The notes below the pieces were generated by a model. The model made no database searches, was not told the origin of the DNA, and was given only the letters and a program-made list of their open reading frames with translations. A stretch of DNA of 34,969 bases. It comes from an uncultured Acidimicrobiaceae bacterium (lineage in GTDB: Bacteria > Actinomycetota > Acidimicrobiia > Acidimicrobiales > MedAcidi-G1). Below are positions 19,148-34,969 of this stretch, in pieces (the stretch's first letter is position 1; the number at the start of each line of letters is the position of its first letter). The stretch covers positions 1 to 34,969 of the forward strand of contig CAJWFS010000012.1 of NCBI GenBank assembly GCA_913030665.1, written 5' to 3'. Made by a program: the position numbers and the translations under genes.

Positions 19148-19150
19148 GCC

Positions 19151-20038
19151 GTGAGCATCTTCGTCGACTCCGACACGAAGGTCGTCTACCAGGGCCTGAC
19201 CGGCAGCCAGGGCCGCTACTACGGTCTGTTGAACCGTGACTACGGCACGCAGGTGGTGGCCGGCACCAACCCCAGGAAGGCCGGGACCGACGTGGACGGC
19301 ATTCCCGTCTACGCCACGGTGGCCGAGGCGGTCGCCGAGACCGGGGCTACGGCCTCGTGCATCTTCATCCCGGCACCCGGCGTCCACGAGGCCGTGCTGG
19401 AGGCTGCCAGGGGTGGTGTGGAGTTCATCGTGGCGATCACGGAGGGCGTACCGGCCCATGACGAGGCCGACCTCTACAACCGGCTCCGCCGGGACTTCCC
19501 CGACGTGCGGCTGTTGGGTCCCAACTGCCCGGGGATCATCTCTCCCGGACAGTGCAACATTGGCATCACCGCCGGCCATATCGCCCTGCCCGGTGGCCCC
19601 GTGGGCATCGTGAGCCGGTCCGGCACGCTCACGTACCAGGCGTTGTTCGAACTCAAGGAGAAGGGCATCGGCTGTACGACCTGTGTCGGCATCGGTGGTG
19701 ATCCTGTGCCCGGCACATCGTTCATCGACTGCCTGGCGGCGTTCGAGGCCGATCCGGAGACGAAGGCGGTGATGATGATCGGCGAGATTGGAGGGTCCGC
19801 CGAGGAGGAGGCCGCCGAGTTCATCGCCGACCACATGACCAAGCCGGTCTCGGCCTACGTCGCCGGTGTGACCGCTCCGCCCGGCAAGAAGATGGGCCAT
19901 GCCGGTGCCATCGTCTCGGGAGGTCGGGGAACCGCCGCCGCCAAGATGGATGCGCTGCGTGCCGCCGGTGTCCGGGTCGGCCTGAACCCGACGGAGGCCG
20001 GCGAGCACATGGCCGACATCGTCGCAGACCTGGGCTGA
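19151..20038 (+). CDS. sucD: Succinyl-CoA ligase, alpha subunit
   Basis: This 295-residue partner of sucC has a CoA-binding N-terminus ([18 protein letters not shown]) and the phosphorylated catalytic histidine H250 in [24 protein letters not shown] is the usual conserved block. The GTG start is 3 nt after the sucC stop, with GGGAGG at 19137-19142 inside the end of sucC. Size and motifs are standard. With icd at 23346, mdh at 29076 and sdhB at the end of the window, it forms a loose cluster of TCA-cycle genes. Confidence 0.97.
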
Positions 20039-20063
20039 CGGAATCAGCTGACGGGGCCACTGG

Positions 20064-20069
20064 TACGGT
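20064..20069 (+). promoter_or_regulatory. -10 element (TACGGT) for leaderless purN
   Basis: TACGGT ends 7 nt before the purN ATG, with no Shine-Dalgarno sequence. It lies in the 38-nt gap after sucD. Confidence 0.5.
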
Positions 20070-20076
20070 CGCCCAC

Positions 20077-20685
20077 ATGTCGTTGGCGGTGCTGGTCTCG
20101 GGAACGGGTTCGATCCTGGACGCGATGATGGCAGCCGGTCTGCCAGTCGCCCTGGTCGTCTCGGACCGCCCGTGTCCGGCCATCGCGTTGGCGGCCGACC
20201 ATGACGTGGAGGCGGTCGTGGTGCACCGGGACTCCTTCGGCGACGACTTCGACCGGGACGCCTACACGGTGCGCCTGACGGAACTGCTGGTCGACCGTGG
20301 GGTCTCGCTGGTGGCCATGGCGGGATTCGGCACGATCCTCGGCCAGCCGGCCTACGACCGCTTCGCCGGGCAGATCCTGAACACCCATCCCGCTCTGCTG
20401 CCCGCCTTCCCCGGCTGGCATGCGGTCCGCGATGCCCTTGCCCACGGCGTGACGGTGACCGGCTGCACCGTGCACCTGGCGACCCTCGAGGTGGATGCCG
20501 GGCCGATCCTGGCCCAGGGGACGGTCGAGGTCCGCCCCGACGACGACGAGGCCAGCCTCCACGGGCGCATCAAGGCCGTGGAGCGGCGCCTCTACGTGGA
20601 CACCATCCGTTCGGTCCTGGCCGGCGACTCGACCTTTCCGGTCCCGTCGGTTCCGGCTGGCGCCTTCGGGGGAGCATCCACATGA
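20077..20685 (+). CDS. purN: Phosphoribosylglycinamide formyltransferase (GAR transformylase)
   Basis: This 202-residue enzyme of de novo purine synthesis transfers a formyl group from 10-formyl-tetrahydrofolate to GAR. Catalytic N102 and H104 lie in NTHPALLPAFPG, and D140 lies in VDAGPILAQG, matching the Asn, His and Asp of the E. coli enzyme. The substrate loop near the N-terminus is LVSGTGS. The start lacks a ribosome site but follows a TACGGT box by 7 nt, so it is probably leaderless. purH overlaps its stop by 4 nt (ATGA), a natural pairing because both use the same folate. Confidence 0.95.
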   Translation: MSLAVLVSGTGSILDAMMAAGLPVALVVSDRPCPAIALAADHDVEAVVVHRDSFGDDFDRDAYTVRLTELLVDRGVSLVAMAGFGTILGQPAYDRFAGQILNTHPALLPAFPGWHAVRDALAHGVTVTGCTVHLATLEVDAGPILAQGTVEVRPDDDEASLHGRIKAVERRLYVDTIRSVLAGDSTFPVPSVPAGAFGGAST

Positions 20686-22211
20686 GCGCCCCTGCAGGTC
20701 GCAGGGCCCTGTTGTCCGTCTACGACAAGACGGGGATCGTGGACCTCGCCACCTCGCTGGTGGAGCTGGGGTGGGAGCTGGTCGCGAGCGACAAGTCGGC
20801 GTCGCTGCTGGCGGCCGAAGGCATAGCGGTGACCGAGGTGGCCGAGATGACGCAGGCCCCGGAGATGCTGGGCGGTCGGGTGAAGACCCTCCACCCGGTG
20901 GTCCATGGCGGGATCCTGGCTGACCGGTCGGATCCGGCCCACATGCACGACCTCGGCGAGCGTGGCATCACGCCCATCGACCTGGTGGTGGGGAACCTCT
21001 ACCCGTTCACGTTCGATCCGGGTATCGAGCTGATCGACATCGGAGGTCCGACCATGGTCCGGGCGGCGGCCAAGAACCACGCCCACGTCGGTGTGCTGGT
21101 GGATCCGGACGACTACGGGCCTGTCGTCGAGGAACTCAGGGCCGACGGCTGGCTGGGAGATGCCACCCGCCGCCGACTGGCCAGGGCGGCGTTCGCCCAC
21201 ACCGCTGCCTACGACGCCGCGATCGTCGCGTGGTTTGATGCCGATCCGGCTTCGGATCACGCCGGTGATCCCCTCAAACCCTCCATGCACCTGGCCCTGG
21301 AACGGGTGCAGGACCTCCGGTATGGCGAGAACCCCCACCAGGTGGGTGCCCGGTACCGGGCTGCGGGAACGACGGGGTGGTGGGACACCGCCGTGGCCCA
21401 CGGCGGAAAGGCCATGTCGTACCTGAACCTCTTCGACACCGAGGCCGCCTGGCGCCTCGTGCACCGTCTCGGCGAGGAGCCGTGTGCCGTGGTCGTCAAG
21501 CACGCCAACCCGTGTGGGGCAGCGGTCGGCTCCGACATCGCCGACGCCTACCTGGCAGCCCACGAGTGCGACCCGGTGTCGGCATTCGGCGGGATCGTGG
21601 CCGTGAACCGTCCTGTCACCATGGTGATGGCCGAGGCGCTTTCCGAGGTGTTCACCGAGGTGGTCGTGGCGCCTGCCTACGAGCTCGACGCGCTGGCCCA
21701 CCTCCAGGCCCGTCAGGACCTCCGGATACTGGAGGCCGATGGGCCTGGTTGGCCGGAGCTGGACGTGAGGGGGATCGACGGCGGTCTGCTGGTCCAGACC
21801 GTTGATCGCCTCATCGCCGAGCCGGCCACGTGGCAGGTGGTGACCGACCGGGAACCCACGGCGTCAGAGTGGTCGGACCTGGAGTTCGCGTGGCGGGTGG
21901 TAGCACGGGTGAACTCGAACGCGATCGTGTTGGTGAAGGACCGTCGTGCCGTGGGGATCGGCGCCGGCCAGCAGAATCGCCGTGACGCCGGACGTATCGC
22001 CGCAGAAAAGGCTGCTGGTCGGGCCGTCGGTGGGGCCTGTGCCAGCGACGCCTTCTTCCCGTTCAGGGATGGCCTGGACGCGGCCGCCGATGCCGGCGCC
22101 ACGGCTGTGGTCCAGCCGGGAGGGTCGATGCGTGACGATGAGGTGATCGCCGCCGCGAACGCCCACGGCATGGCGATGGTGCTGACCGGTGAACGCCACT
22201 TCCGACACTGA
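20682..22211 (+). CDS. purH: Bifunctional AICAR formyltransferase / IMP cyclohydrolase
   Basis: This 509-residue enzyme carries out the last two steps of IMP synthesis. The N-terminal cyclohydrolase part shows LLSVYDKTGI, the conserved KTLHP (in GGRVKTLHPVVHGG) and NLYPF. The C-terminal transformylase has the catalytic K273-H274 in VKHANPCG, then DPVSAFGGI and the end block with SDAFFPFRDG and VQPGGSMRD. The ATG overlaps the purN stop. Length is normal. folD, which makes the formyl donor precursor, follows 47 nt later with its own promoter. Confidence 0.97.
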   Translation: MSAPAGRRALLSVYDKTGIVDLATSLVELGWELVASDKSASLLAAEGIAVTEVAEMTQAPEMLGGRVKTLHPVVHGGILADRSDPAHMHDLGERGITPIDLVVGNLYPFTFDPGIELIDIGGPTMVRAAAKNHAHVGVLVDPDDYGPVVEELRADGWLGDATRRRLARAAFAHTAAYDAAIVAWFDADPASDHAGDPLKPSMHLALERVQDLRYGENPHQVGARYRAAGTTGWWDTAVAHGGKAMSYLNLFDTEAAWRLVHRLGEEPCAVVVKHANPCGAAVGSDIADAYLAAHECDPVSAFGGIVAVNRPVTMVMAEALSEVFTEVVVAPAYELDALAHLQARQDLRILEADGPGWPELDVRGIDGGLLVQTVDRLIAEPATWQVVTDREPTASEWSDLEFAWRVVARVNSNAIVLVKDRRAVGIGAGQQNRRDAGRIAAEKAAGRAVGGACASDAFFPFRDGLDAAADAGATAVVQPGGSMRDDEVIAAANAHGMAMVLTGERHFRH

Positions 22212-22222
22212 GTAGCGGGCCG

Positions 22223-22251
22223 TTCGACAGCCTTCGGACGTCCGATAGCGT
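22223..22251 (+). promoter_or_regulatory. Promoter of leaderless folD (TTCGAC - 17 nt - TAGCGT)
   Basis: TTCGAC at 22223-22228 and TAGCGT at 22246-22251 have 17-nt spacing; the -10 box ends 7 nt before the folD ATG. It is the most complete -35/-10 pair among the probable leaderless genes here. Confidence 0.55.
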
Positions 22252-22258
22252 CGCACGC

Positions 22259-23116
22259 ATGAGCGCACGACTTCTCGAAGGTGGACCGGTCGCCGAGGCC
22301 GTCTTGGACGATGTCAGGGCCCGGGTGGACGCCCTCAGGGCCATCGGCATAACGCCCGGCCTGGGCACGATCCTCGTCGGCGACGACGGCGCCAGTGCCG
22401 GCTACGTCCGCAAGAAGCACGAGACCTGTGAGTCGGTGGGCCTCGTCTCCAGCCACATTCAGGTCCAGGCCGGTGATCCTCCGGCAGCCCTGGATGAGGC
22501 CGTTGCGGCCTTCAACGAGGACTCGTCGATCCACGCGTACATCATCCAGCACCCGGTCGCCGACGGCTTCGACTTCAACGCCGCCCTGTCCGCCATGGAC
22601 CCGGGCAAGGATGCTGACGGCCTCCATCCGACGAACCTGGGCAGATTGGTCCTTCAGGAGGACGGGCCGGTGCCGTGTACGCCGGCTGGTATCCAGGCCA
22701 TGTTCGTGCACTACGACATCGACATCAGCGGAAGGCACGTGGTCGTGATAGGCCGCGGTCCGACGTTGGGCAGGCCGTTGGCGCTGCTGCTGACCACCAA
22801 GGCTCCCGGCGCCAACGCAGCGGTGACCGTGGTGCACTCGGCTGTTCCGGACCTGGCGGACCTGACTCGTGAGGCCGACATCGTCGTGGCAGCCCTCGGC
22901 GTACCGTCCTTCGTGAAGCCTGAGATGGTGAAGCCCGGAGCGGTCGTGGTGAGCGGGGGCATCTCCTGGGAGGGTCGCAGGCTGCTGGCCGACGTGGATG
23001 AGTCGGTCGGCGAGGTGGCGTCGTGGATTACCCCCCGCCTCGGTGGCGTGGGCCCGACGACGGTGGCCATGCTGCTGCGAAACACCGTCGAGGCGGCTGA
23101 ACGCTCTGTCTCGTAG
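22259..23116 (+). CDS. folD: Methylenetetrahydrofolate dehydrogenase / methenyltetrahydrofolate cyclohydrolase
   Basis: This 285-residue bifunctional enzyme converts methylene-THF to formyl-THF. The key residues are present: Y49 and K53 (GYVRKK), Q97 (IIQHP) and D120 (KDADGLHP). Several otherwise well-kept blocks differ from the E. coli form: IIQHPVADG replaces the usual QLPLP block, GRGPTLGRP replaces the GRSxxVGxP cofactor loop, and VVVSGGISWEGRRL replaces the usual DVGIN block. This matches a divergent form I recall from actinobacteria, so function is probably kept; the changed loop may affect NADP versus NAD use. There is no ribosome site, and a -10 box lies 7 nt before the ATG. It supports purN and purH upstream. 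Confidence 0.93.
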   Translation: MSARLLEGGPVAEAVLDDVRARVDALRAIGITPGLGTILVGDDGASAGYVRKKHETCESVGLVSSHIQVQAGDPPAALDEAVAAFNEDSSIHAYIIQHPVADGFDFNAALSAMDPGKDADGLHPTNLGRLVLQEDGPVPCTPAGIQAMFVHYDIDISGRHVVVIGRGPTLGRPLALLLTTKAPGANAAVTVVHSAVPDLADLTREADIVVAALGVPSFVKPEMVKPGAVVVSGGISWEGRRLLADVDESVGEVASWITPRLGGVGPTTVAMLLRNTVEAAERSVS

Positions 23117-23332
23117 CCGGGTCGCGTGGGCCCCGGCGCCGAGGTCCGGTGCCTGGGTCATGCACCTTCCGTCTGGGTGGTAGGTGCCCTACTTTCTCGT
23201 ATCACGGGAGATCCGACAGACGGCACCTTGCGGACAAGTTGGCCCGGCCGACTTCGGGATCACGTAAGTTCTTCTTCGATGCCGGCCCGGTCTGCCGGTT
23301 GTTCCGCTGAATGCCGATGGGCCCGCAATCGG

Positions 23333-23338
23333 TAGGGT
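23333..23338 (+). promoter_or_regulatory. -10 element (TAGGGT) for leaderless icd
   Basis: TAGGGT ends 7 nt before the icd ATG and no Shine-Dalgarno is present. The rest of the 229-nt gap holds a short hairpin after folD (23180-23192, GTAGG/CCTAC, then TTTC) but no recognisable gene. Confidence 0.5.
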
Positions 23339-23345
23339 CGTTCCC

Positions 23346-24542
23346 ATGGCAGAAAAGATCACCATGAACGATGGCGGTGTCCTGAACGTCCCCGACGACC
23401 CGATCATCCCGTTCATCGAGGGCGACGGCACCGGCGTGGACATCTGGCCGGCGGCCCGGCTCGTGCTGGACACCGCGGCGGCCAGGTACGGCCACTCCAT
23501 CGAGTGGATGGAGGTGCTTGCAGGCGAGAAGGCCTACAACGAGACCGGCGACTGGCTGCCCCAGAAAACGGTCGAGGCCTTCTCCGAGTACCTGATCGGT
23601 ATCAAGGGTCCGCTGACCACCCCGATCGGTGGCGGCTTCCGCAGCCTCAACGTGGCCCTCCGCCAGATCCTGGACCTCTACGTCTGCCTGCGACCCGTCC
23701 GTTGGTTCGAGGGGGTGCCGTCGCCGGTGAAGCGGCCCGAGTTGGTGGACATGGTGATCTTCCGCGAGAACACCGAGGACATCTATGCAGGCCTCGAGGT
23801 AGAGGCGATGACGCCGGATGCTCTGAAGCTCCGAGAGTTGCTGGAGGACGCATTCGGCTGGCGCATCGCCGAAGACGCCGGCATCGGCATCAAGCCGATC
23901 TCCAAGACCGGTTCCCAGCGACTACAACGGGCCGCCATCCAGTATGCGGTGGACCGCGGTCGTCCTCGGATCCACTGGGTGCACAAGGGCAACATCATGA
24001 AGTTCACCGAGGGTGCCTTCCAGAAGTGGGGCTACGAGCTGGTACGCGAGGAGTTCTCCGATGTCGCAGTCGGGTGGGACGACTGTGGTGGCGACCCCGG
24101 AGACAGGATCCTCGTGCAGGACACCATCGCCGACATCGCCCTACAGCAGGTGCTGACTAGGCCTTCGGAGTTTGACGTGATTGCAACCATGAACCTAAAC
24201 GGTGACTACCTGTCGGACGCCCTGGCCGCACAGGTGGGTGGCATCGGCATAGCCCCCGGGGGCAACGCCAACTACGTCACCGGCCATGGCATCTTCGAGG
24301 CCACGCACGGCACAGCCCCCAGGTACGCCGGTCAGGACAAGGTCAACCCCTCGTCGGTCATCCTCTCTGGAGCACTCATGTTTGAGCACATCGGCTGGCA
24401 GGACGCCGCTGACGACATCGTCCGGGGGATCGAGTCCGCGGTTGCCGACAGGATCGTGACCTACGACTTCGCCCGCCTGATGGATGATGCGACGGAGGTC
24501 AGCTGCTCGGAGTTCGCCTCGGCCGTCGCCGACCGGCTCTGA
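23346..24542 (+). CDS. icd: Isocitrate dehydrogenase, NADP-type (E. coli-like)
   Basis: This 398-residue TCA-cycle enzyme oxidises isocitrate to 2-oxoglutarate. The active-site loop [13 protein letters not shown] carries S100, the equivalent of the regulatory serine S113 of E. coli. [12 protein letters not shown] and [12 protein letters not shown] are conserved blocks. NADP contacts look preserved: the Tyr of RYAGQDKV, its Val, and the late Arg in FARLMDD; the Lys before the Tyr is Arg. This is the homodimeric E. coli type. The monomeric enzyme common in actinobacteria is not what is seen here. The upstream TAGGGT box suggests a leaderless transcript. An ABC exporter gene follows 22 nt later with its own ribosome site. 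Confidence 0.95.
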
Positions 24543-24564
24543 GCTGAATCCTCCGGAGGCAGCC

Positions 24565-26412
24565 GTGCCGAGGCCCGGTACAGCCATGGGCTTTTCGGAG
24601 AGCGTGTTCAGGCGCGGATGGCGATTGGTCCGACGTTCGCTGCGGGCCCATCCGTTGGCCCACGCCACCGCCATCATGGGCGCCAACGTGTTCGCCCTGG
24701 CCGTGGTGGGCTTCACCGTGGTCGTCGGTCGCGTCACTGACGAGGTGATCGTTCCGGGCCTGGACGGCGACGGGGTGTCGCGTCGGTCGCTCCTGGTGGC
24801 GGTGGTGACGGTCGTGGGGATCGGCGTCGTGCGTGGTGCATCGATCATGGTCCGCCGGTGGTTCAACATGCTGGCGATCGCCAGGACCCAACGGACATGG
24901 CGGTTGGCAGTCACCGACAGGTTCCTGGACGCCCCGATGGACTTCCACCGCTCGAGACCTGCCGGCCTCCTGCTCGCCCACGCCGATGCCGACGTGGAGG
25001 TGGCCACGTCCATGCTCATGCCGCTGGCGTTTTCTATGTCGGTGGTGGTGCTGGCCGTCGCATCGCTGGTCAGCCTGCTGGTCGTCCATCCACTGTTCGC
25101 GTGCGTGGCGCTGCTCCTGTTCCCGACGCTGACGGTGCTGAACCGTCGGTTCACGAGCGCTGTGGAGGCGCCTGCGGCCCTGGGCCAGGATGCTGTGGGC
25201 GTGCTCTCGGGCATCGCACATGAGAGCCTCGATGGTGCGATGGTCGTCAAGACCCTCGGGCGCGAGGGCGAAGAGGTGGACCGGTTCACCGAGGCCGCCG
25301 CCGAACTTCGCGGGCACCGTCTGGAGGTAGGTCGGCTCAGGAGTGGATACGCGCCGGTCATCTACGCCCTGCCGAACCTGGGGATCATCGTCCTGCTGGT
25401 GCTGGGTGCATGGCTGGTGGGCCGCGGGGCGGTGTCGATCGGCGACGTGGTCAGGGCCATGTCCCTGTTCAGCATCCTGACCCTGCCGATGGAGATCCTC
25501 GGCTACATGTTCCAGGAGATGCCGCGCTCGGTGGTTGCCATGGATCGCATCGACCGCGTCCTGGCGGTCAGCCCCGAAGCGAGGCCGGATCCGGTTCCCT
25601 CTGTAGGCGACCGGGTGGCCGTCGAGTTCGACGGGGTGTCATACGCCTACCGGCCGGTCGACAAGGGTGCCGCCAGAGTGGGGGGCGCGAAGCAGCCAAG
25701 CCTGGCACCGGTGCTGGCCGACCTTTCATTCCGGATTCGGCCCGGGGAGTCGGTCGCCATGGTCGGCGCCACCGGGTCGGGGAAGAGCACCATGGTCTCC
25801 CTGCTCTGCGGCCTCGTCCAGCCCACCGTTGGTCGGGTGCTGCTGGGGGGGGTGGACGTCTCAGACCTGGGTTCGGACGGTGCGTCAGGCATCGTTGCCC
25901 CGGTTCTCCAGGAGACCTTCCTCTTCGCTGACACGGTGCACAACAACCTGACCCTGGGGAACGACGTCACGGATGAGGAGATTGATGCCGCCCTTGTCGT
26001 CGTGGCGGCAGACGGATTCGTCAAGGCGCTGCCCGACGGACTCGACACCGTGGTCGGGGAGCGGGGGGCGACCCTGTCAGGCGGTCAGCGCCAGCGTCTA
26101 GCCATAGCCAGGGCGCTGCTCCGCCGTCCCCGGGTACTGGTGCTGGATGACGCCACCTCGGCCGTGGACCCGACGATCGAGGCCGGGATCCTCCGGAACC
26201 TGAGGGTCGCACCGGGGATGGGTCGGAGTGGATCTGACGCGGCCGTACCGACCCTCCTGGTTATTGCCCACCGGCTGGCCACGATCCGCATGGCGGACCG
26301 GGTGCTGTTTCTGGAGGGCGGTTCAATCGCGGCCTCCGGAAGCCACGAGGAGCTGCTGGACGTGCCGGCCTACGCCACCCTGGCCCGGGCATACGAGGAG
26401 GCCGGCCTGTGA
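24565..26412 (+). CDS. ABC exporter half-transporter, subunit with degenerate Walker B
   Basis: This 615-residue protein starts at the GTG at 24565 (GGAGG at 24555-24559, 5-nt spacing). A six-helix membrane domain of exporter type is followed by an ATPase domain with Walker A GATGSGKST (401-409), a complete signature LSGGQRQR (504-511), and Walker B LVLDD in which the catalytic Glu is Asp (D529). The H-loop is VIAHRLA. There are two small insertions in the ATPase domain: one after YAYRPVDKG, and one before the H-loop. The next gene overlaps by 4 nt and has the reciprocal defect, so the two form one heterodimer with a single strong ATP site. The substrate is unknown; lipids or drugs are typical for this class. 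Confidence 0.93.
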   Translation: MPRPGTAMGFSESVFRRGWRLVRRSLRAHPLAHATAIMGANVFALAVVGFTVVVGRVTDEVIVPGLDGDGVSRRSLLVAVVTVVGIGVVRGASIMVRRWFNMLAIARTQRTWRLAVTDRFLDAPMDFHRSRPAGLLLAHADADVEVATSMLMPLAFSMSVVVLAVASLVSLLVVHPLFACVALLLFPTLTVLNRRFTSAVEAPAALGQDAVGVLSGIAHESLDGAMVVKTLGREGEEVDRFTEAAAELRGHRLEVGRLRSGYAPVIYALPNLGIIVLLVLGAWLVGRGAVSIGDVVRAMSLFSILTLPMEILGYMFQEMPRSVVAMDRIDRVLAVSPEARPDPVPSVGDRVAVEFDGVSYAYRPVDKGAARVGGAKQPSLAPVLADLSFRIRPGESVAMVGATGSGKSTMVSLLCGLVQPTVGRVLLGGVDVSDLGSDGASGIVAPVLQETFLFADTVHNNLTLGNDVTDEEIDAALVVVAADGFVKALPDGLDTVVGERGATLSGGQRQRLAIARALLRRPRVLVLDDATSAVDPTIEAGILRNLRVAPGMGRSGSDAAVPTLLVIAHRLATIRMADRVLFLEGGSIAASGSHEELLDVPAYATLARAYEEAGL

Positions 26413-28220
26413 GCGACGTCGACTGGAGCCCGGCCGCCGAAGCCCCCGACGAGATCAGGGCGGCGGGCGCCTTCGCCATCCTGCGACGCGGACTGGCCGC
26501 CTCGCCGGAACTGCGCGATGGGCTGGTCTTCACCGCTCTGATGGCCCTGGCAGTCGCAGGCTCCAAGCTGCTCGTCCCGCTCACCATCCAGGCGGTGCTG
26601 GACGGGGCGATGACCTCTGACGGCGTGAGCATGGGTCGGGTCCTGGTCCTCTCCGGCGGAGCCGCCGTGCTGGTCGTCGGCAGCATCCAACTGGGTCGGG
26701 TCACGTACCTCCGGCTGGTCGCTACGGCTGAGAACGTGCTCTACGGCCTGCGGGTGCGCACCTTCGGGCACCTGCACCGTCTCAGCCTCGCCGAGCACAC
26801 GGCGTCCAGCAAGGGTGTGCTGACGGCCAGGGTGACCAGCGATGTGGAGACCCTCACCAAGTTCGCCCAGTGGGGCGCCGTGGCGTGGATCATCAACTCG
26901 GTCCAGATAGTTGCCGTGCTGGTCATCATGTCGGTCTATTCGTGGCAGCTGACGCTGGTGACGCTCAGCCTGCACCTGCCCCTCCTTCCGATCCTGCGCT
27001 GGATGCAGCAGCGCCAACTGCTCGCCTACAACCTGCTCCGCAGCAGGGTCTCGGAGACGTTCGGGGTGATATCGGAGTCGGTGCACGGGGTGGAGGTGGT
27101 ACGTACCTACGGATACCGGGAGCCGACCCGCCGCCGGGTCCGGTCCGCCGTGGACTCCCAGTACCGGCAGCAGCTGGTGGCGGCCCGGTACTTTTCCCTG
27201 GTTCTGCCGATCTCGGACGTCCTCGGGGTGGCGGCCATCGCCTCGGTCATCGGAGCCGGTGTCTGGTGGGGTGGCGCCTGGGGTGTGTCGTCGGGCGAGC
27301 TGGTGGCCTTCGTGTTCCTGTCGAACCTCCTGGTGGCTCCGATCACCGAGCTGGGAGAGGTGCTGGACCAGACCCAGACGGCGTTGGCAGGGTGGTGGAA
27401 GATCCTGGACGTGCTGGACACCCCCGTCGAAGTGGTGGACCCCGTCGAACCCCGGCCCGTCCCCGGTGGCGCTCTGGAGGTGCGGGCCGAGGCCGTGGAG
27501 TTCTCCTACCGGACCGGCGGGTTGGTGCTCCGCGGGATCGACGTCGTGCTGACGGCCGGCTCCTCAGTGGCGGTCGTGGGTGAGACCGGCTCAGGAAAGA
27601 CCACGTTCGTGAAGTTGCTGGCCCGGCTGGCCGATCCGACGGCGGGTCGGGTGCTGGTCGGAGGCGTCGACCTGCGTGACGCATCGCCGGAGGACCGGCG
27701 ACGGGCGGTGCGGATGGTCCCCCAGGACGGCTTCCTGTTCGATACCACCGTCAGGGCGAATATCGGATTCGGCCGGGTCGGTTCCGATGATGACGACGTC
27801 GATGCGGCCATCGACCTTCTCGGACTGCGCGAGTGGGTGGAGCGCCTTCCCGATGGCCTGGAGACAATGGTGGGTGAGCGTGGCGAGGGCCTCTCGGTGG
27901 GCGAACGGCAGCTGGTGGCCCTGGCCAGGGCACAACTGGGTGATCCGGGCCTCCTGGTCCTCGACGAGGCCACGTCGGCCGTCGACCCCGAGACGGAGAC
28001 CGCCCTGGAACGGGCGCTGGAGCGCCTCGCCATCGGTCGGACCACGGTCAGCGTCGCCCACCGGCTCTCGACAGCCGAGCGGTCCGATCTGGTGCTGGTG
28101 TTCGACGACGGTCGGATCGCCGAGAGGGGCACGCACACCGAGCTGCTGGAACGCGGTGGCATCTACGCGGGCCTCCATGACTCGTGGCTGGGCAACACCC
28201 GTGCCGTCGGGATGCCCTAG
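26409..28220 (+). CDS. ABC exporter half-transporter, subunit with degenerate signature
   Basis: This 603-residue protein starts at the GTG overlapping the previous stop (GTGA). It has an exporter-type membrane domain, then an ATPase domain with Walker A GETGSGKTT (391-399), the altered signature LSVGERQ (495-501, normally LSGGQRQ), Walker B LLVLDE with intact catalytic E520, and H-loop VAHRLS. Its altered signature would face the Walker B Asp of the partner, so both defects fall in the same composite site, as in known asymmetric exporters such as TM287/288 or BmrCD. The other composite site would be complete. The PIG-L deacetylase gene follows after 6 nt and may share the operon. Confidence 0.93.
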   Translation: MSDVDWSPAAEAPDEIRAAGAFAILRRGLAASPELRDGLVFTALMALAVAGSKLLVPLTIQAVLDGAMTSDGVSMGRVLVLSGGAAVLVVGSIQLGRVTYLRLVATAENVLYGLRVRTFGHLHRLSLAEHTASSKGVLTARVTSDVETLTKFAQWGAVAWIINSVQIVAVLVIMSVYSWQLTLVTLSLHLPLLPILRWMQQRQLLAYNLLRSRVSETFGVISESVHGVEVVRTYGYREPTRRRVRSAVDSQYRQQLVAARYFSLVLPISDVLGVAAIASVIGAGVWWGGAWGVSSGELVAFVFLSNLLVAPITELGEVLDQTQTALAGWWKILDVLDTPVEVVDPVEPRPVPGGALEVRAEAVEFSYRTGGLVLRGIDVVLTAGSSVAVVGETGSGKTTFVKLLARLADPTAGRVLVGGVDLRDASPEDRRRAVRMVPQDGFLFDTTVRANIGFGRVGSDDDDVDAAIDLLGLREWVERLPDGLETMVGERGEGLSVGERQLVALARAQLGDPGLLVLDEATSAVDPETETALERALERLAIGRTTVSVAHRLSTAERSDLVLVFDDGRIAERGTHTELLERGGIYAGLHDSWLGNTRAVGMP

Positions 28221-28226
28221 GAGCTG

Positions 28227-28985
28227 GTGTTGGAGCCACGCGAGCCACAGGACCGGATCGATCCGATGATCGGTCGGGGGGCCGGGGAGTGGGACCGGTT
28301 GGTCTCGGGCCTGCCCGCCGTCTCTGTTCCCTGGCCCCCGGTGGGCCCGATCGTGGTGGTGGCTCCCCACCCGGATGATGAGTTGCTGGCCGCCGGTGCC
28401 ACCCTGGCCGCGGCTTCTGATGCAGGGACCGAGATCACTGTCGTGGCCGTTACCGACGGCGAGGCATCCCACCCGCATCTGACCGGTGGTGAACGCGATG
28501 AGCTGGTGGGCCTGCGCCTCGCCGAGACCGACCGGGCGTATGCGGCGGCAGGAATCGTGGCCGTCCGCCACCGCCTGGAGCTTCCCGACGGCGGAGCCTC
28601 CGACCATGAGGGGCATCTGGCCGAACGGCTGGCCGCCCTGCTGGCCGGCTCTGCCTGGTGCCTCGCCCCGTGGGAGTCCGACGGCCACCCTGACCACGAC
28701 GTCTGTGGTCGGGTGGCAGGCGACGCCTGCCGGGACCTGGGGGTGCGGTTCGCGCGGTTCCCCGTCTGGTCCTGGAACTGGGACGATCCGTCGTCGCCGT
28801 CCATCCCGTTCGATCGGGCCGTGGCCTGGTCGTTCGGCAACGACATGGCGGCCCGGAAGCAGGCAGGCATCGCCGCCTACTCGAGCCAGGTGCAGCCGGC
28901 TGACGGTCACAGGCCGGTCCTCCCGGCAGGGTTCTTGGAGCACTTCGCCCGATGCTCGGAGGTGTTCCTGCCGGTAGCCGGTTGA
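28227..28985 (+). CDS. PIG-L / LmbE family deacetylase
   Basis: This 252-residue protein belongs to the zinc-dependent N-acetyl-sugar deacetylase family that includes MshB of mycothiol synthesis. The metal motif is APHPDDE (H48, D50, D51), and a second block is DGHPDHD with H154 and H157. The GTG at 28227 follows AGGAG by only 3 nt; the TTG at 28230 would have a better 6-nt spacing, so the true start may be there. It begins 6 nt after the ABC exporter pair, so it is probably in that operon and might act on the exported compound; that link is inference. It is somewhat shorter than MshB, so a different sugar or thiol substrate is possible. Confidence 0.88.
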   Translation: MLEPREPQDRIDPMIGRGAGEWDRLVSGLPAVSVPWPPVGPIVVVAPHPDDELLAAGATLAAASDAGTEITVVAVTDGEASHPHLTGGERDELVGLRLAETDRAYAAAGIVAVRHRLELPDGGASDHEGHLAERLAALLAGSAWCLAPWESDGHPDHDVCGRVAGDACRDLGVRFARFPVWSWNWDDPSSPSIPFDRAVAWSFGNDMAARKQAGIAAYSSQVQPADGHRPVLPAGFLEHFARCSEVFLPVAG

Positions 28986-29032
28986 GCCGAGCGTCACGCT
29001 TCCGCGCTGCGGTACCGGGTACGGGCGATCGG

Positions 29033-29038
29033 TAGCCT
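29033..29038 (+). promoter_or_regulatory. -10 element (TAGCCT) for mdh
   Basis: TAGCCT would start a transcript with a leader of about 31 nt that includes the ribosome site GAGGAG at 29064-29069. Confidence 0.42.
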
Positions 29039-29075
29039 CGCCCCCGTCAGGACCCTTTCGGAAGAGGAGCAACCC

Positions 29076-30065
29076 GTGAGCCCCACCCCCGTCCGAGTCG
29101 TCGTCACCGGTGCCGCCGGCCAGATCGGCTACAGCCTCGTCTTTCGGATCGCCAGCGGTGCCATGCTGGGTCCGGACCAGCCGGTCATCCTGAAACTCCT
29201 GGAGATTCCTCCGGCGATGGGCGCCCTGGACGGCGTGGCGATGGAACTCGACGACTGCGCCTTCCCGCTCCTGGCCGGTCTGGAGTTGAGCGATGATCCC
29301 GACACGACCTTCGGCGGGGCGAACGTGGCCCTTCTCGTCGGCTCCCGTCCCAGGACCAAGGGGATGGAGCGCCAGGACCTGCTGGAGGCCAACGGCGCCA
29401 TCTTCACCGGCCAGGGTCGTGCCCTGAACGACCATGCTGCCGACGACCTGCGGGTCCTCGTGGTCGGTAACCCGGCCAACACCAACTGCCTGATCGCCAT
29501 GAACAGCGCCCCGGACGTTCCCAGCGAGCGCTTCACGGCCATGATGCGCCTAGACCACAACCGTGCTCTCACCCAGGTGGCCCAGAAGCTCGGTACGAGC
29601 GTCAACGATGTGTCGCGGATGACGATCTGGGGCAACCACTCGGCCACCCAGTATCCGGACCTCGTCCACTGCGAGGTTCCCGGTGGCACCGCCGCCGAGG
29701 TGATCGGCGACCAGGCATGGCTGGAGGGCGATTTCATCCCGACCGTGCAACAGCGTGGCGCGGCCATCATCGAGGCCCGGGGGGCTTCCAGCGCAGCGTC
29801 TGCTGCCAACGCCGCCATCGATCACGTGCACGACTGGATGGCGGGAACGTCGGACGGCGACTGGGTCTCCATGGGAGTCCCATCCGATGGCAGCTACGGC
29901 GTGCCGGAGGGCCTGCTCTGCGGGTTCCCGGTCACCTGCGCCGACGGCAACTACGAGATCGTCCAGGGTCTGGAACTCGACGACTTCTCACGGGCCCGTA
30001 TCGATGCATCGGTCGCCGAGCTGGCCTCCGAGCGGGACATGGTGCGGGACCTGGGCCTGATCTAG
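29076..30065 (+). CDS. mdh: Malate dehydrogenase, NAD-dependent
   Basis: This 329-residue TCA-cycle enzyme oxidises malate to oxaloacetate. It is of the cytosolic-type group, with the NAD loop [11 protein letters not shown] (11-21), LLEIPPA at the end of the second strand, substrate-binding R91/R93 in [10 protein letters not shown]160 and R163 in LDHNRA, and catalytic H188 in [11 protein letters not shown]. The GTG start is set by GAGGAG at 29064-29069 with 6-nt spacing. Its stop shares the four bases CTAG (30062-30065) with the stop of the convergent SCP2-like gene, so there is no room for a terminator between them. Confidence 0.97.
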
Positions 30066-30430
30066 GAATAGCGGGCTGCGGCGAACACGTCTCCGAGGCC
30101 GTCCAGCACGGCCCGGTGGTCCACCAGCACGCGGGGGTCGCCCGACACGAGGACGTCCCCGTCGATCACGGCTCGTAGCGGATCCAGGGTCCCATCGGCG
30201 ATGGCGGTCGCAGTGGCCGCCCCGGTCGTGAAGCTGAGGTCGGGTTCGTCCGCCGGGCCGCTGACCACCCTCGCCGTGCCTCCTTCCAGCCGCACATGCC
30301 AGGTGCCTCCGTCGACGATCCGGTACTCGATGACGAGGGCCATGTCGGCGGTGGCGGCCAGAAGGCCGTCGTGGGTCGACGCAGCCGCGTCCATGGCTTC
30401 TATCCAGGCTTCGGTGAGGGGCTCTACCAC
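30062..30430 (-). CDS. SCP2 sterol-carrier-like domain protein
   Basis: From the GTG at 30430 this is a 122-residue protein. The pattern [18 protein letters not shown], then EPDLSFTT, then [17 protein letters not shown] resembles the SCP2 sterol-transfer fold (lipid-binding pocket), in the small stand-alone form common in actinobacteria. The reading frame continues far upstream without a convincing start; the GTG at 30430 is favoured because a TAGGCT box lies 8 nt before it and the domain begins at once. There is no ribosome site. It is divergent from the swivel-domain gene across 135 nt and convergent with mdh, sharing the stop tetranucleotide. The ligand is unknown. Confidence 0.78.
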
Positions 30431-30438
30431 GGTTTGGC

Positions 30439-30444
30439 AGCCTA
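30439..30444 (-). promoter_or_regulatory. -10 element (TAGGCT) for leaderless SCP2-like gene
   Basis: On the minus strand TAGGCT ends 8 nt before the GTG at 30430. Three GGGACC hexamers directly precede it. Confidence 0.42.
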
Positions 30445-30462
30445 GGTCCCGGTCCCGGTCCC
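30445..30462. repeat. Tandem hexamer GGTCCC x3
   Basis: Three perfect copies (18 bp) abut the -10 box of the SCP2-like gene, in the place where the spacer to a -35 element would be. Confidence 0.6.
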
Positions 30463-30565
30463 GCTCCGCCTCGACAATGGGGCGACGGCTACGGTCCGGG
30501 CTGCGACAACCTGGTTGGGACGTCCGGGCTGTGCGGGCCGGCCTGGAACGAGGGAGGGTGACCGC

Positions 30566-30916
30566 ATGACCGAGATCGGGCGTGGCCAGAAGACCTACGA
30601 CTACGGGCTCCGACGCGGTCGATGGCTCCGCCTGGAAGGCCCCGAGGACGTCCTTGGCCTCATGGACACTGGTGCTGACGGCATCGTGGCGGTGGTCCGG
30701 GATGCCGGCGCCACCTTCCTGGGACCGATCTTCGATGAGTTGGCCGGCGTGGTGTGCACCGGTGGCACCATCCGGAGCCACATCGGGATCGTCAGCCGCG
30801 AGTACAGGGTTCCCGGGGTGATTGCCGCCCAACTCACCGTGGAACCAGCCGATGGAACCGAGGTGGAGTTGGATGCGTCGGGTGACGAGGGCGTGATCCG
30901 TCTGGTGGCGCGATGA
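30566..30916 (+). CDS. Stand-alone phosphohistidine swivel domain (PEP-utilising enzyme mobile domain)
   Basis: This 116-residue protein starts at the ATG at 30566 (GGGAGGG at 30552-30558, 7-nt spacing). Residues about 35-112 match the mobile domain of PEP synthase, pyruvate phosphate dikinase and enzyme I, which carries phosphate on a histidine. The key stretch is CTGGTIRSHIGIVSREY with H72 as the expected phospho-acceptor, then the usual V-P-G-V and a late G-T-E-V-E-L-D-A-S-G. In the classic enzymes this domain is fused to an ATP-binding and a PEP-binding domain; neither is here. The next gene overlaps by 4 nt (ATGA) and is a protein I do not recognise, so the two probably form one system. 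Residues 1-34 are family-unlike and may be the docking part. Confidence 0.85.
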   Translation: MTEIGRGQKTYDYGLRRGRWLRLEGPEDVLGLMDTGADGIVAVVRDAGATFLGPIFDELAGVVCTGGTIRSHIGIVSREYRVPGVIAAQLTVEPADGTEVELDASGDEGVIRLVAR

Positions 30917-32055
30917 GCCGTGACCGTGTCGGTCGTGCCGATGGAACGGCCCGGAACCAGGTGAATTCCTGGTTGGCTGCCATCAACCCGGTGACCAGCC
31001 ACCTGATCGCTGAACGCACCTCCTATTCGTCGCAGCTCATCCCAGTGACCCCGTACGTGACCGTGTCGTGCATCGAGGCGTTCCTTCGCTACCCGGAGGC
31101 GGTGGCGACGATCGCCGCCGCCATGCCACCAGAGGAGATCGGTGCGGCGGCCCGGCGGCCCGGGTGCCAGGTCGACTCGGTGTTCCTGTGGGGGATCGCC
31201 AACTTCTTCCTCATCGGTCGCAACGTCATGGCGATGGTCGATCCGACGCTGGACTCCGTTGAGCGGACCCACACGGTGCTGGACTTCTGGGCGCGTGCCT
31301 CTCACGCCTACCGGGGTGGTCCTCACCTGCATGCCGCCGAGGTGGGCAACCGCGTCGATGTGCTGTCGCCAGAGATGGTCGCCCATCTGGCGGCCGGTGC
31401 CACGAGGGTCGACAACGAGCGCCGTGACCGGATCCGCAGGGCCAATGCCACGCTCATCAACCACCTGTTCCTGCTCTACTTCGACACCCGGGTGGGCCAT
31501 GCCGATACTGGCCCGTACCGCCTCGAGGATGGCCGAACCCTGATAGTCCGGGACTTCTACCGCCTCGGGGAGAGCGACTTCTCCTGGTCCAGCGTGGCCG
31601 CTGGCGTTCCGCACCGCAATCTCACGGCGGCGCTGGTCCTGGACCCGCAGGTCGAGGTGTCGATCACCGACTACGGGACGACCATCTCGTCGCCGGAGGA
31701 TTACCTGGAGCACCTGAACGGGTTCGGCCTCTACACGACCGATGGCGTGGTACCCGGTGGGCTGCCGGTGCCGCTCTCCGACCAGGAGCTTGAGGCAACG
31801 GCTGCGGAGGCGAAGGTGGCCCAGCGGAAGCACTACCGGGACATCGTCGCCATGGACCGCGATGAACGCATCGCCTGTGGCGCCTACGTCTACTTCACCT
31901 TCCTGCGACCGTTTGCCGAGATCGCAGGCGTGGCCGACGAGATCGACTGGACGTGCCCCAGGGACATTCCCGCGGACCTCTACCCACTTGTCACGGCTGA
32001 TATGGAGCCACCGGAACGCGACCCTGACGCCGACGTCTACCCGGCATACGCCTGA
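30913..32055 (+). CDS. Unrecognised 380-residue protein coupled to the swivel-domain protein
   Basis: This protein starts at the ATG overlapping the previous stop (30913-30916), so translation is coupled. I do not recognise the family. It has no signal peptide and no clear transmembrane helix, so it is probably cytoplasmic. An N-terminal helical half (about 15-190) includes FLWGIANFFLIGRNVMAMV and a His-rich stretch GGPHLHAAEVGNR. A more mixed second part has conserved-looking motifs LYFDTRVGHADTGPYRL, LIVRDFYRLGESDFSWSS and VSITDYGTTISSPEDYL. Neither a P-loop, an ATP-grasp signature nor the TIM-barrel motifs of PEP-binding domains are visible. The context suggests that it is the catalytic or substrate partner of the phosphohistidine domain. 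It ends 4 nt before the convergent DUF368 gene. Confidence 0.85.
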   Translation: MSRDRVGRADGTARNQVNSWLAAINPVTSHLIAERTSYSSQLIPVTPYVTVSCIEAFLRYPEAVATIAAAMPPEEIGAAARRPGCQVDSVFLWGIANFFLIGRNVMAMVDPTLDSVERTHTVLDFWARASHAYRGGPHLHAAEVGNRVDVLSPEMVAHLAAGATRVDNERRDRIRRANATLINHLFLLYFDTRVGHADTGPYRLEDGRTLIVRDFYRLGESDFSWSSVAAGVPHRNLTAALVLDPQVEVSITDYGTTISSPEDYLEHLNGFGLYTTDGVVPGGLPVPLSDQELEATAAEAKVAQRKHYRDIVAMDRDERIACGAYVYFTFLRPFAEIAGVADEIDWTCPRDIPADLYPLVTADMEPPERDPDADVYPAYA

Positions 32056-32059
32056 ACGG

Positions 32060-33004
32060 TCAACTCCTGGAGCGGGCCAGCCTGTCGACGCCCAACACCA
32101 ACACCACGGCTGCCATTGCGAGGGCCGTCGGTGCGACCAGGCCACCTATGGCGTCCGGCCAGCCGAGGCCTGCCCCGTCGACGGCCTCCTCCGCATGCCG
32201 GCTGACCACGCCGACACCGTGGGGCCAGGGCCAGAGGACACGTAGCGAACCGACCATGAGGCCGACCATCAAGGCCAGGACGTCGTCGTGGCGCCGCTCC
32301 AGCAGGCCGGCCAGAAGCGAGGAGAAGAACGCCAGGCCGACAATCGCACCGGCGCCGAACACGGCTGCGTCGAGGAGCAGGCGTTCATCCACCACGCCGA
32401 TCACCGCGGAGTACATGCCAAGGATGAGCAGCAGGAACGAGCCTGAGATGCCAGGCAAGACCATGGCACAGACGGCCACCGCCCCTGAGGCCAGCAGCAT
32501 CAAGGCAGACGGATCCGTGATCGGAGCCCCCTGGTAGCCCAGCCCGGCGAAGACGACGATGCTGACCAGGGCGGCTCCGCCGAGGCGCCGTTTTGTCCAT
32601 GCCACCTCGCGACGGGTCACCAGCACCGAGGCCACGACAAGGCCCAGGAACAGGCCGGCCATGGGTTCCGGGTGGTCGATGAGGGCGCCTTCAATCAGGT
32701 CGGCCAGCAGTACGACCGTGGCCAGGAGGCCGACCAGCAGCGGGACGAGGAACCACCAGTCCACCTCGCCGAGCCGTCGGAGGCCACCGCGGGGGTCGCC
32801 TCGGATGAACCGACCCAGCGCGCGCGAACCGCTGCGGATCGCAGCCAGCAGCCTGTCGTAGACCCCTAACAGCAGGGCCAGCGTTCCACCGGACACGCCG
32901 GGAACCACGTCGGCCGCTCCCATGCAGGCACCGCGTCCCAGCTGTGCCAGCAGCGTTCGCGTCCCGGGGCGGGCCTGGCCCCGGTGAGGCACGGTGTCCG
33001 CCAT
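32060..33004 (-). CDS. DUF368 membrane protein, undecaprenyl-phosphate transporter (PopT) family
   Basis: This 314-residue inner-membrane protein has about eight hydrophobic segments and the two inverted family motifs: GRGACMGAADVVPGVSGG at 23-40 and AVCAMVLPGISGS at 177-189. DUF368 proteins (PopT) have been shown to help return the lipid carrier undecaprenyl phosphate across the membrane for reuse in cell-wall synthesis. The ATG shares one base with the stop of the thioesterase gene upstream (TGATG), so the two are cotranscribed and coupled. The C-terminus ends with a hydrophobic helix and a short basic tail. The assignment to the family is firm; the role here is by family. Confidence 0.93.
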   Translation of the reverse strand: MADTVPHRGQARPGTRTLLAQLGRGACMGAADVVPGVSGGTLALLLGVYDRLLAAIRSGSRALGRFIRGDPRGGLRRLGEVDWWFLVPLLVGLLATVVLLADLIEGALIDHPEPMAGLFLGLVVASVLVTRREVAWTKRRLGGAALVSIVVFAGLGYQGAPITDPSALMLLASGAVAVCAMVLPGISGSFLLLILGMYSAVIGVVDERLLLDAAVFGAGAIVGLAFFSSLLAGLLERRHDDVLALMVGLMVGSLRVLWPWPHGVGVVSRHAEEAVDGAGLGWPDAIGGLVAPTALAMAAVVLVLGVDRLARSRS

Positions 33005-33441
33005 CAGGCCCCGGCACCCCCGTCGGCCACCAGGTAGGGGGTCAGGCGGGCGGCCATGTCGGCGGGGAAGCGGGTCGGCTTCCCGCTGGTGCCGGTGACG
33101 GCTGCCACTACCTCCTGTGTGGCCAGCACGACGTCGCCCCGTAGGAGACGCTGTCCCCAGCGGGACGAGGCGCGCCGCAGCTCGAGCACCTCGGTTTCGA
33201 TCACGAGGTTGTCGCCGGCGACAGCCGAGGCCAGGAACTTCGTGATGATCCGGGTGACGACGAACCGGAAGCCCTCGGATTCCAGGTCATGCAGTCCAAG
33301 TCCCGCCTCGTCCAGCAACTCGATCCTGCCGGTCTCGAACAACTGGACGTAGACGCTGTGGTTCAGGTGCCCGTAGGGGTCCAGCTCGTAGAATCGGACC
33401 TTCACCGGATGGCGGTGTGGGGCGGTCGGGGCGTTCTGCAC
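33004..33441 (-). CDS. Hot-dog fold acyl-CoA thioesterase, YbgC/FadM-like
   Basis: This 145-residue protein of the 4-hydroxybenzoyl-CoA thioesterase group hydrolyses acyl-CoA thioesters. The active-site block is RFYELDPYGHLNHSVY with catalytic D21, as in YbgC-type enzymes (usual form D-x-x-GH-x-N). The later strand RIITKFLASAVAGDNLVIETEV is typical. The GTG at 33441 has no ribosome site, but a TAGCGT box lies 7 nt upstream, which supports a leaderless start there. It is coupled to the DUF368 gene downstream by a TGATG overlap, which could link it to membrane lipid turnover, although that is only context. It is divergent from the alpha/beta hydrolase. Confidence 0.9.
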   Translation of the reverse strand: MQNAPTAPHRHPVKVRFYELDPYGHLNHSVYVQLFETGRIELLDEAGLGLHDLESEGFRFVVTRIITKFLASAVAGDNLVIETEVLELRRASSRWGQRLLRGDVVLATQEVVAAVTGTSGKPTRFPADMAARLTPYLVADGGAGA

Positions 33442-33448
33442 GCGGGTG

Positions 33449-33454
33449 ACGCTA
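33449..33454 (-). promoter_or_regulatory. -10 element (TAGCGT) for leaderless thioesterase
   Basis: On the minus strand TAGCGT ends 7 nt before the GTG at 33441, with no Shine-Dalgarno. It faces the hydrolase promoter about 70 nt away. Confidence 0.5.
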
Positions 33455-33523
33455 GCCGTCGGGGTTCCGGGGGCCGGGTCCGCCCGGGGTGGGTGGACGG
33501 CCGGGTGGCGGATGCCACAGGGC

Positions 33524-33529
33524 TACCCT
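33524..33529 (+). promoter_or_regulatory. -10 element (TACCCT) for leaderless alpha/beta hydrolase
   Basis: TACCCT ends 7 nt before the ATG at 33537, with no Shine-Dalgarno. It supports that start over an in-frame ATG further upstream. Confidence 0.5.
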
Positions 33530-33536
33530 CGGCCCC

Positions 33537-34391
33537 ATGGCGGGTACAGACTCACCGTCCGGAGTCCAGATCTATTCAGAGGTGTTCGAGCCGACGTCCG
33601 GAACATCCGGCGCTGGCGCCGTGCTGCTGGTGTCGGGAGCCGATTCCCACTGCACCCGTTGGACGTCGGCGTTCATCCAGCCGCTGCTGGACCTGGGACA
33701 CCGCGTGGTGCGATATGACCACCGGGACAGTGGCATGTCGGACAAGGTGCCGGCTGATGTCGGATACACGCTGGCGGACCTGGCCGATGATGCCTGTGCG
33801 GTCATGGACGAGCACGGAATCGTCCGGGCCCACGTGGTCGGTCGGTCCATGGGTGGCATGGTCGGTCAGGTGATGGCGCTGGACCATGCCGATCGTGTGA
33901 TCACGTTGACGTTGCTCTGCTCCAGCCCCGGTCTCGGTGACGAGAGCTTGCCGTCGGCCGCTGACTGGCTGTTAGACCGCATGGCCGAGAGGCTCTTTGC
34001 CCCGCCCCCGGCCGACCATGCCGAACGGGTCGCCTGGATGGTGGAGCTGGACGAGATGTTCGCTGGCAGCCGTTATCCGGTCACCACCGCTGAGCGGATC
34101 CGTACGGCCGCCGTCGAGGTGGAGCGGTGCTGGTATCCGGAGTCGGGTCACGGCCCGGCGGTCAACTCCTCGCCCTCCCGACTGGGCCGGTTGGGTGGAA
34201 TTGCCGTACCGACGCTGGTCGTCCACGGCACGGTCGACCCGGTGTTCCCCGTGGAGCACGCCCTGGCCCTGGCTGACGGGATTCCCGATGCCGGGCTCTG
34301 GCTGGTTGAGGGCCTGGGCCACGAGGTGCCCGATGGCCTGTTGCCGGCACTGCTCGAACGCATCCGGGAGCATCTCGCCGTTGGGGCCTAA
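33537..34391 (+). CDS. Alpha/beta-fold hydrolase (RdmC / esterase-like)
   Basis: This 284-residue protein shows the catalytic triad in order: S104 in VGRSMGG (the G-x-S-x-G elbow), D234 in VHGTVDPVFP, and H262 in GLGHEVP. The oxyanion region near 31-40 (LVSGADSHC) and YDHRDSGMSD are as in aclacinomycin methylesterase-like hydrolases of actinobacteria. It has no signal peptide, so it is probably cytoplasmic. The ATG at 33537 is preferred to one at 33489 because the fold begins near it and a TACCCT box lies 7 nt upstream. The substrate, probably a small ester, is unknown. It faces sdhB, with 39 nt between the stops. Confidence 0.9.
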   Translation: MAGTDSPSGVQIYSEVFEPTSGTSGAGAVLLVSGADSHCTRWTSAFIQPLLDLGHRVVRYDHRDSGMSDKVPADVGYTLADLADDACAVMDEHGIVRAHVVGRSMGGMVGQVMALDHADRVITLTLLCSSPGLGDESLPSAADWLLDRMAERLFAPPPADHAERVAWMVELDEMFAGSRYPVTTAERIRTAAVEVERCWYPESGHGPAVNSSPSRLGRLGGIAVPTLVVHGTVDPVFPVEHALALADGIPDAGLWLVEGLGHEVPDGLLPALLERIREHLAVGA

Positions 34392-34430
34392 CCGGGCGTC
34401 ATGAGGTCAGTCCTGACGCTGGCGCTGGGG

Positions 34431-34969
34431 TCAGTGCTGGCCGGCCAGAGCCCGGTTCCTGACCTTCGCCTTCATGTAGTCGCGGTTCATGAACGCGATG
34501 AAGTCCAGTGAGATCTCCTTCGGGCAGGCCTCCGAGCACTCGCCGTGGTTCGTGCACGAGCCGAAGAACTCCTCCATGGTCTCGACCATGGCCTCGGTCC
34601 TGCTCCACCGTTCGGCCTGGCCCTGGGGCAGCAGGCCCAGGTGGCCGATCTTGGCTGAGGTGAACAGCTGCGCCGCCGAGTTCGGGCAGGCGGCCACGCA
34701 GGCACCGCACCCGATGCAGGCGGCGGCGTCGAATGCCTGGTCAGCAGCGGCCTTCGGCACCGGGATGAGGTTGGCGTCAGATGCCGCTCCCGTACCGACG
34801 GAGATGTATCCACCGGCCTCGATGATCCGATCCAACGGGGACCGGTCGACGGCCAGGTCGCGCACCACCGGGAAGCCGGCCGCACGGAACGGCTCGATCA
34901 CGATCTCGTCGCCGTCGGAGAACTCCCGCATGTGGAGCTGGCAGGTGGCGGTGGCCTTCTGGGGTCCGT
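34431..34969 (-). CDS. sdhB: Succinate dehydrogenase / fumarate reductase iron-sulfur subunit, C-terminal part
   Basis: The gene runs off the end of the window at its 5' side; 178 codons before the stop are visible. Its protein carries electrons from the flavin subunit to quinone in the TCA cycle and respiratory chain. The two cysteine clusters of the C-terminal domain are [12 protein letters not shown] (near 34718-34683) and [12 protein letters not shown] (near 34556-34521). In frame before the internal Met at 34931 the sequence TATCQLHM continues the protein, so that Met is not the start. The 2Fe-2S N-terminal part is mostly missing, with one cysteine visible in TATCQLH. The cluster spacing is that of the Bacillus/Bacteroidetes-like (non-E. 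coli) type of SdhB. Confidence 0.93.

Follow-up and report, generated by a model that had tools for sequence, protein, structure and literature searches.

What does a phosphohistidine swivel protein do when no kinase domain stands beside it, and what is the partner with which it is translated? We addressed these questions in a window of 34,969 nucleotides, contig 12 of a metagenome-assembled genome (MAG; 1.94 Mb, 88% complete) whose closest named relatives are marine Acidimicrobiia MAGs. A first-pass annotation had reported in this window a 116-residue protein with the full swivel signature, including a histidine at position 72, translationally coupled by an ATGA overlap to an unrecognised protein of 380 residues, here called P380. 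On re-reading, the coordinates, the lengths and the coupling were all correct, the motifs quoted for the larger protein were found in its sequence, and the flanking genes, one divergent and one convergent, were as claimed (Table 1). The swivel protein matched PF00391 with an E value of 3.2e-7 and 30.3 bits, above the curated cut-off of 23.1. The ATP-binding and PEP-binding domains had been described as absent nearby, and indeed neither PPDK_N nor PEP-utilizers_C was found close to the pair.

Table 1. Positions of the swivel-P380 pair, its neighbours and the truncated PPDK genes
Feature	Position	Strand	Basis or remark
Shine-Dalgarno-like gagggaggg	30550..30558	+	5' of the swivel ATG; read from sequence
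Stand-alone phosphohistidine swivel protein, 116 aa	30566..30916	+	PF00391 profile match
H72 codon CAC, predicted phospho-acceptor, motif GGTIRSH	30779..30781	+	conserved in aligned swivels
ATGA overlap of P380 start and swivel stop	30913..30916	+	sequence
P380, 380 aa, proposed acceptor-substrate/phosphotransfer module	30913..32055	+	conservation and AlphaFold2 model
SCP2-like (sterol carrier protein) gene, divergent from the pair	about 30062-30430	-	PF02036 E 3.9e-7; start codon placed by eye
DUF368/VCA0040-like gene, convergent with the pair	32060-33004	-	profile search
Malate dehydrogenase (mdh), conserved upstream neighbour	29076..30065	+	NF003916 E 5e-169; syntenic
Succinate dehydrogenase iron-sulphur subunit-like (sdhB-like), conserved downstream neighbour	34431..34967	-	syntenic; identity from sequence
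Truncated PPDK (L134)	G000:C20:18208-19470		swivel and PEP-site motifs intact
Truncated PPDK (L135)	G011:C4:3319-4878		swivel and PEP-site motifs intact

In Acidimicrobiia the pair sits between the mdh and sdhB-like genes together with the divergent SCP2-like gene, and this holds for homologs down to about 50% identity. Wherever an Acidimicrobiia locus includes upstream sequence the SCP2-like gene adjoins the pair, except in a few loci that a contig end cuts short. Genes resembling sucCD and icd were identified by eye farther upstream in the window, and with mdh and the sdhB-like gene they make positions 17978-34967 a TCA-cycle neighbourhood, among whose genes lie purN/purH/folD-like genes and two ABC transporters. 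The TCA-cycle placement of the pair may reflect function or simply a conserved order of genes.

The pairing itself, found across one class and in several genera of Actinomycetes, is conserved far beyond chance, and its histidine does not vary. Homologs of P380 occurred in 34 of 61 related genomes, and in the inspected loci the swivel gene was directly upstream. Our census of the genome collection comprised 92 swivels near P380 relatives, at 60 named loci, and all 92 keep the histidine aligned with H72, each being followed by a P380. The two genes overlap by four bases in 39 of the 92 pairs and are fused in 18, the others being spaced from -8 to +12 bases, and all 18 fusions keep the order swivel-P380, the same as the gene order. 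The residues S71-H72 were invariant in 23 diverse swivels. Pairwise distances among swivels and among P380 proteins were correlated (r = 0.96 over 90 pairs), a value for which shared ancestry accounts in part, and in those Actinomycetes whose genomes carry three paralogous units the P380 types keep to their respective swivel types. The sole exception to adjacency that we found was in Novosphingobium, where the two genes lie 9 kb apart in a single cluster. Swivel and P380 are consequently a real and old unit, inherited together. One further locus, L078 (PCCM01000120.1), has the Acidimicrobiia type of pair with its neighbours, at 72% identity, under the label Gemmatimonadetes, probably through an error in labelling or binning.

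P380 could not be assigned to any known family: searches of Pfam, NCBIfam and PDB sequences gave no significant match, either with P380 alone or with an 18-sequence profile. The matches to GvpA, DUF4031 and TrmB were weak and not convincing. No relative was found in the IMG/VR viral collection, and our literature search found no paper naming the family or its cluster. In 56 homologs the residues R35, R103, R134, R193, R213, G200, Y202, W225, Y327 and W346 are invariant, and invariant arginines are common in phosphate or carboxylate sites. The AlphaFold2 model built with these 56 homologs was confident (pLDDT 92.3, pTM 0.91), yet Foldseek returned nothing from the PDB at E <= 0.001, the best E value being 0.85 and the query-normalised TM-scores of the PDB matches listed being about 0.15 or less; likewise, nothing was returned from the BFVD viral models at E <= 0.001. 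A natural swivel-P380 fusion from Acidimicrobiia (L109, about 540 residues) was modelled with a pTM of 0.87 as two ordered domains joined by a linker of low confidence at residues 118-154, as expected for a mobile domain, and Foldseek matched its swivel to PPDK, RPH (rifampin phosphotransferase), Enzyme I and pyruvate kinase C-terminal domains. On a plasmid of R. opacus B4, a 793-residue protein (L038, 7320-9701) joins a swivel to a P380-like part, and its C-terminal stretch weakly matches TrmB.

The genes that accompany the unit outside Acidimicrobiia suggest what it may do. The Rhodococcus members are about 30% identical to those of Acidimicrobiia. A plasmid of R. oxybenzonivorans carries three swivel-P380 units clustered with one protein annotated as 'pyruvate, phosphate dikinase'. 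The cluster also contains an AMP-binding protein (AMP ligase), a 202-residue protein, a biotin carboxyl carrier, a biotin carboxylase, a carboxyltransferase, a thiolase and a tyrosine phosphatase-like protein. The dikinase consists of an ATP-grasp and a swivel and passes the equivalog PRK05878 (784.8 bits, cut-off 456), which we take to be the profile of Mtb Rv1127c/VadK; this match and the domain make-up indicate a dikinase of putative VadK type. Most of the Rhodococcus set is found again in another phylum, in a different order, within about 13 kb of Novosphingobium resinovorum: P380, carboxylase genes, AMP ligase, thiolase, swivel, 202-residue protein and dikinase. The three-unit core with a DUF7065-like gene is also present in Pseudonocardia, Amycolatopsis, Hoyosella, Skermania and other genera, and smaller versions of the cluster are found on plasmids of Rhodococcus sp. 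008 and Methylibium petroleiphilum PM1.

Two other proteins recur in these surroundings. A protein of 198-202 residues and no known family lies directly upstream of or near the VadK-type dikinase (L144, 25962-26570; L040, 9448-10044; L149, 10750-11337), and is possibly related to Rv1126c, given as the operonic partner of VadK (PMC13400623). A DUF7064/DUF7065-type protein stands beside swivel-P380 units in several lineages (L037, L038, L040, L086, L102, L106, L110-L112, L115-L131).

In the window's own genus the means of loading the swivel is less apparent. The window's genome as assembled has no PPDK_N, and its sole PEP-utilizers_C lies on another contig. PPDK_N (PF01326) was found in none of the 17 genomes of the genus, and the N-terminal PPDK region of a relative, used as a query in the genus, gave one weak match with stops and nothing else. 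Over the family, PPDK_N is absent from 38 of 48 genomes and P380 is present in 37 of 48; by our own tally 31 of the 37 genomes with P380 are without PPDK_N, the figure for those of high quality being 13 of 18. These searches covered PF01326 and the relative's N-terminus, that is, ATP-grasps of PPDK type, and an unrelated ATP-binding protein may be the partner of the pair in this genus.

A PEP-utilizers_C protein is present in 43 of the 48 family genomes. Most of those that lack PPDK_N have it as an open frame of about 520-625 residues that corresponds to PPDK minus the ATP-grasp. This truncated PPDK lies between the glycyl-tRNA synthetase and DnaG genes in the two genomes inspected. In G011, a genome that is 94% complete, its alignment to PPDK begins at position 28 and runs to the end, with the PEP-site motifs GIGLCRTEHMF, FSFGTNDLTQM and GVCGEHGGDP kept, and the only two PF00391 matches there are this protein and the window-type swivel. 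Most of the genomes with the truncated PPDK hold other swivel proteins besides, and in G017 and G022 it occurs without P380. The gene seems to have a wide distribution, covering three genera of the family and part of a fourth, which also has full-length PPDK. Because HPr (PF00381) was found in none of the 48 family genomes, as compared with 7 of 14 controls, a role of the truncated PPDK as PTS Enzyme I is unlikely. On the evidence of co-occurrence, PEP acting through the truncated PPDK is the only recognisable candidate for the phosphate source, and PEP loading of the swivel is possible. Genome G000 also encodes two HpeH/RPH-like proteins with C-terminal swivels, intact histidines and no ATP-grasp (C73, L132, 2048-3742, minus strand; C94, L133, 2412-4148, minus strand), and for these too the genome offers no recognisable charging partner.

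From the conserved pair and its fusions, the intact histidine, a P380 model with no structural relatives and the contents of the clusters, we infer a direction of phosphate flow, a substrate site on P380, a substrate and a charger. The pair, we believe, is likely to form the acceptor side of a small-molecule dikinase made of several components, with the swivel loaded in trans. A charging enzyme coded elsewhere would place a phosphoryl group on H72, the swivel would dock on P380, which would hold the acceptor molecule, and the phosphoryl group would pass from H72 to that molecule; P380 would do, with another fold, what the rifampin-binding domain does in RPH or the substrate domain in HpeH. In short, a small molecule is probably what the pair phosphorylates. 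The charger in Rhodococcus and Novosphingobium would most likely be the co-clustered VadK-type dikinase, and the phosphorylated product would most likely then be carboxylated by the co-clustered biotin-dependent carboxylase. Since VadK-type dikinases own a swivel, the phosphate could come from them either directly or from histidine to histidine. Perhaps the substrate in Acidimicrobiia differs from that in Rhodococcus, given that the pair is found there in a TCA-cycle neighbourhood and not in a catabolic cluster. The Hpe pathway provides a precedent, with its set of kinase, carboxylase, phosphatase and CoA synthetase: HpeHI phosphorylates, HpeCBA carboxylates the phosphorylated compound and HpeD dephosphorylates (PMC9618137, PMC12167813). 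The similar set of genes is support, short of proof, for swivel-P380 standing in for HpeH.

The first-pass annotation had proposed either a phosphotransfer or substrate-activation system or a split enzyme with its kinase coded elsewhere, and the fusions and the co-clustered VadK-type dikinase support these proposals. The analysis turned up neither of the two findings that the annotation had named as fatal to its reading, a known family for P380 without any link to phosphotransfer or homologs lacking the company of the swivel gene. It had also cast the second protein as a substitute for the usual catalytic parts; this is better read as replacement of the acceptor-substrate domain, and does not extend to the ATP-grasp. 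If it did, P380 would itself be the charging enzyme, binding ATP, PEP or another donor and phosphorylating the swivel. The five invariant arginines would be in keeping with such an enzyme, as would a genus that keeps the pair yet yielded no PPDK-type ATP-grasp gene. However, the full cluster has one VadK-type ATP-grasp protein for three diverged P380s, as one would expect if a single donor served several acceptors, and we regard a charging role for P380 as unlikely. We find it improbable as well that the pair is a regulatory phosphohistidine relay, with the phospho-swivel acting on P380 or on nearby enzymes of central metabolism, along the lines proposed for VadK in the methylcitrate cycle. 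VadK reportedly autophosphorylates and binds methylcitrate-cycle enzymes (PMC13400623), and the position of the pair between mdh and sdhB in many Acidimicrobiia would suit such control, but the clusters of Rhodococcus and Novosphingobium, with carboxylase and CoA ligases, resemble catabolic pathways, and three specialised copies per cluster fit substrate specificity better.

The failure to find an ATP-grasp partner in the genus would also agree with an exchange, or reverse, reaction that moves phosphate between small molecules through H72 with no nucleotide. HpeH alone swaps phosphate between 4-phosphoacetophenone and acetovanillone (PMC12167813). Clusters in other phyla do contain an ATP-grasp dikinase, though, and exchange by itself has no clear benefit, which makes this reading very improbable. 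That P380 is a divergent substrate-binding domain of RPH/HpeH type, and the pair a rearranged HpeH, seems to us scarcely credible. Both keep the same company in some clusters, with a swivel and a carboxylase. Nevertheless, where Foldseek aligns the fused homolog to RPH the alignment spans no more than about 106-116 columns, as long as the swivel, and P380 by itself had no match; an hhalign comparison of P380 with two HpeH-like proteins encoded by the same genome was negative, the second profile having only two sequences; and the pair is swivel-first, in contrast to the C-terminal swivel of HpeH. For the first three of these reasons we do not regard P380 as the RPH/HpeH substrate domain, and we rejected a divergent RIF-binding domain on the swivel-only alignment and the hhalign result.

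The acceptor-side reading, combined with the truncated PPDK, leads to a broader and doubtful scenario, which we put forward tentatively: the swivel kinases of this marine lineage, both stand-alone and split, might take their phosphate from PEP instead of ATP. The donor enzyme would be a PPDK without its ATP-grasp but with swivel and PEP site retained, in a PTS-like relay that has no HPr and feeds small-molecule kinases with a new acceptor fold. In a lineage with no detectable PPDK-type ATP-grasp, a handful of purified proteins would be enough for a direct test of what loads the swivel.

What the locus holds is a conserved two-gene, sometimes one-gene, swivel module, with a partner of inferred acceptor role whose fold is unmatched in the PDB. 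This partner occurs in two phyla or more, in clusters with the look of unknown pathways that would degrade phosphorylated and carboxylated substrates. The swivel of the module is homologous to those of PPDK, PEP synthase and PTS Enzyme I, whereas the pair has the swivel only, with neither ATP-grasp nor PEP barrel. As in RPH, the swivel histidine would carry phosphate between two spatially separate sites; RPH, however, is a single protein of ATP-grasp, RIF-binding domain and C-terminal swivel (PMC4844700), and the fold of P380 is unmatched to the RIF-binding domain. HpeHI, CreHI and PpsAB are closer in design, being split kinases with the catalytic histidine on the swivel and with acceptor side and ATP-grasp on separate proteins (PMC12167813), and a further likeness is the biotin-dependent carboxylase, AMP ligase and thiolase linked to the unit in Rhodococcus and Novosphingobium. 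The differences are that P380 shows no detectable kinship with the HpeH/RPH substrate domain, that the swivel is a separate upstream gene or is N-terminal in fusions, and that an HpeI-type ATP-grasp is neither adjacent nor found in the window's genus. As the pair has neither the substrate-domain fold nor an ATP-grasp partner in the genome, we did not file it with the HpeH/RPH family. VadK/PRK05878 is, like the pair, a PPDK-derived phosphohistidine protein, and a member co-clusters with the three Rhodococcus units; VadK holds an ATP-grasp, in contrast to the window pair, and the available part of its description makes no mention of a P380-type partner (PMC13400623). These comparisons suggest P380 as a possible class of acceptors downstream of VadK-type dikinases. 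The acceptor modules known for swivel dikinases are the PEP/pyruvate barrel and the RPH/HpeH domain, and P380 looks like another.
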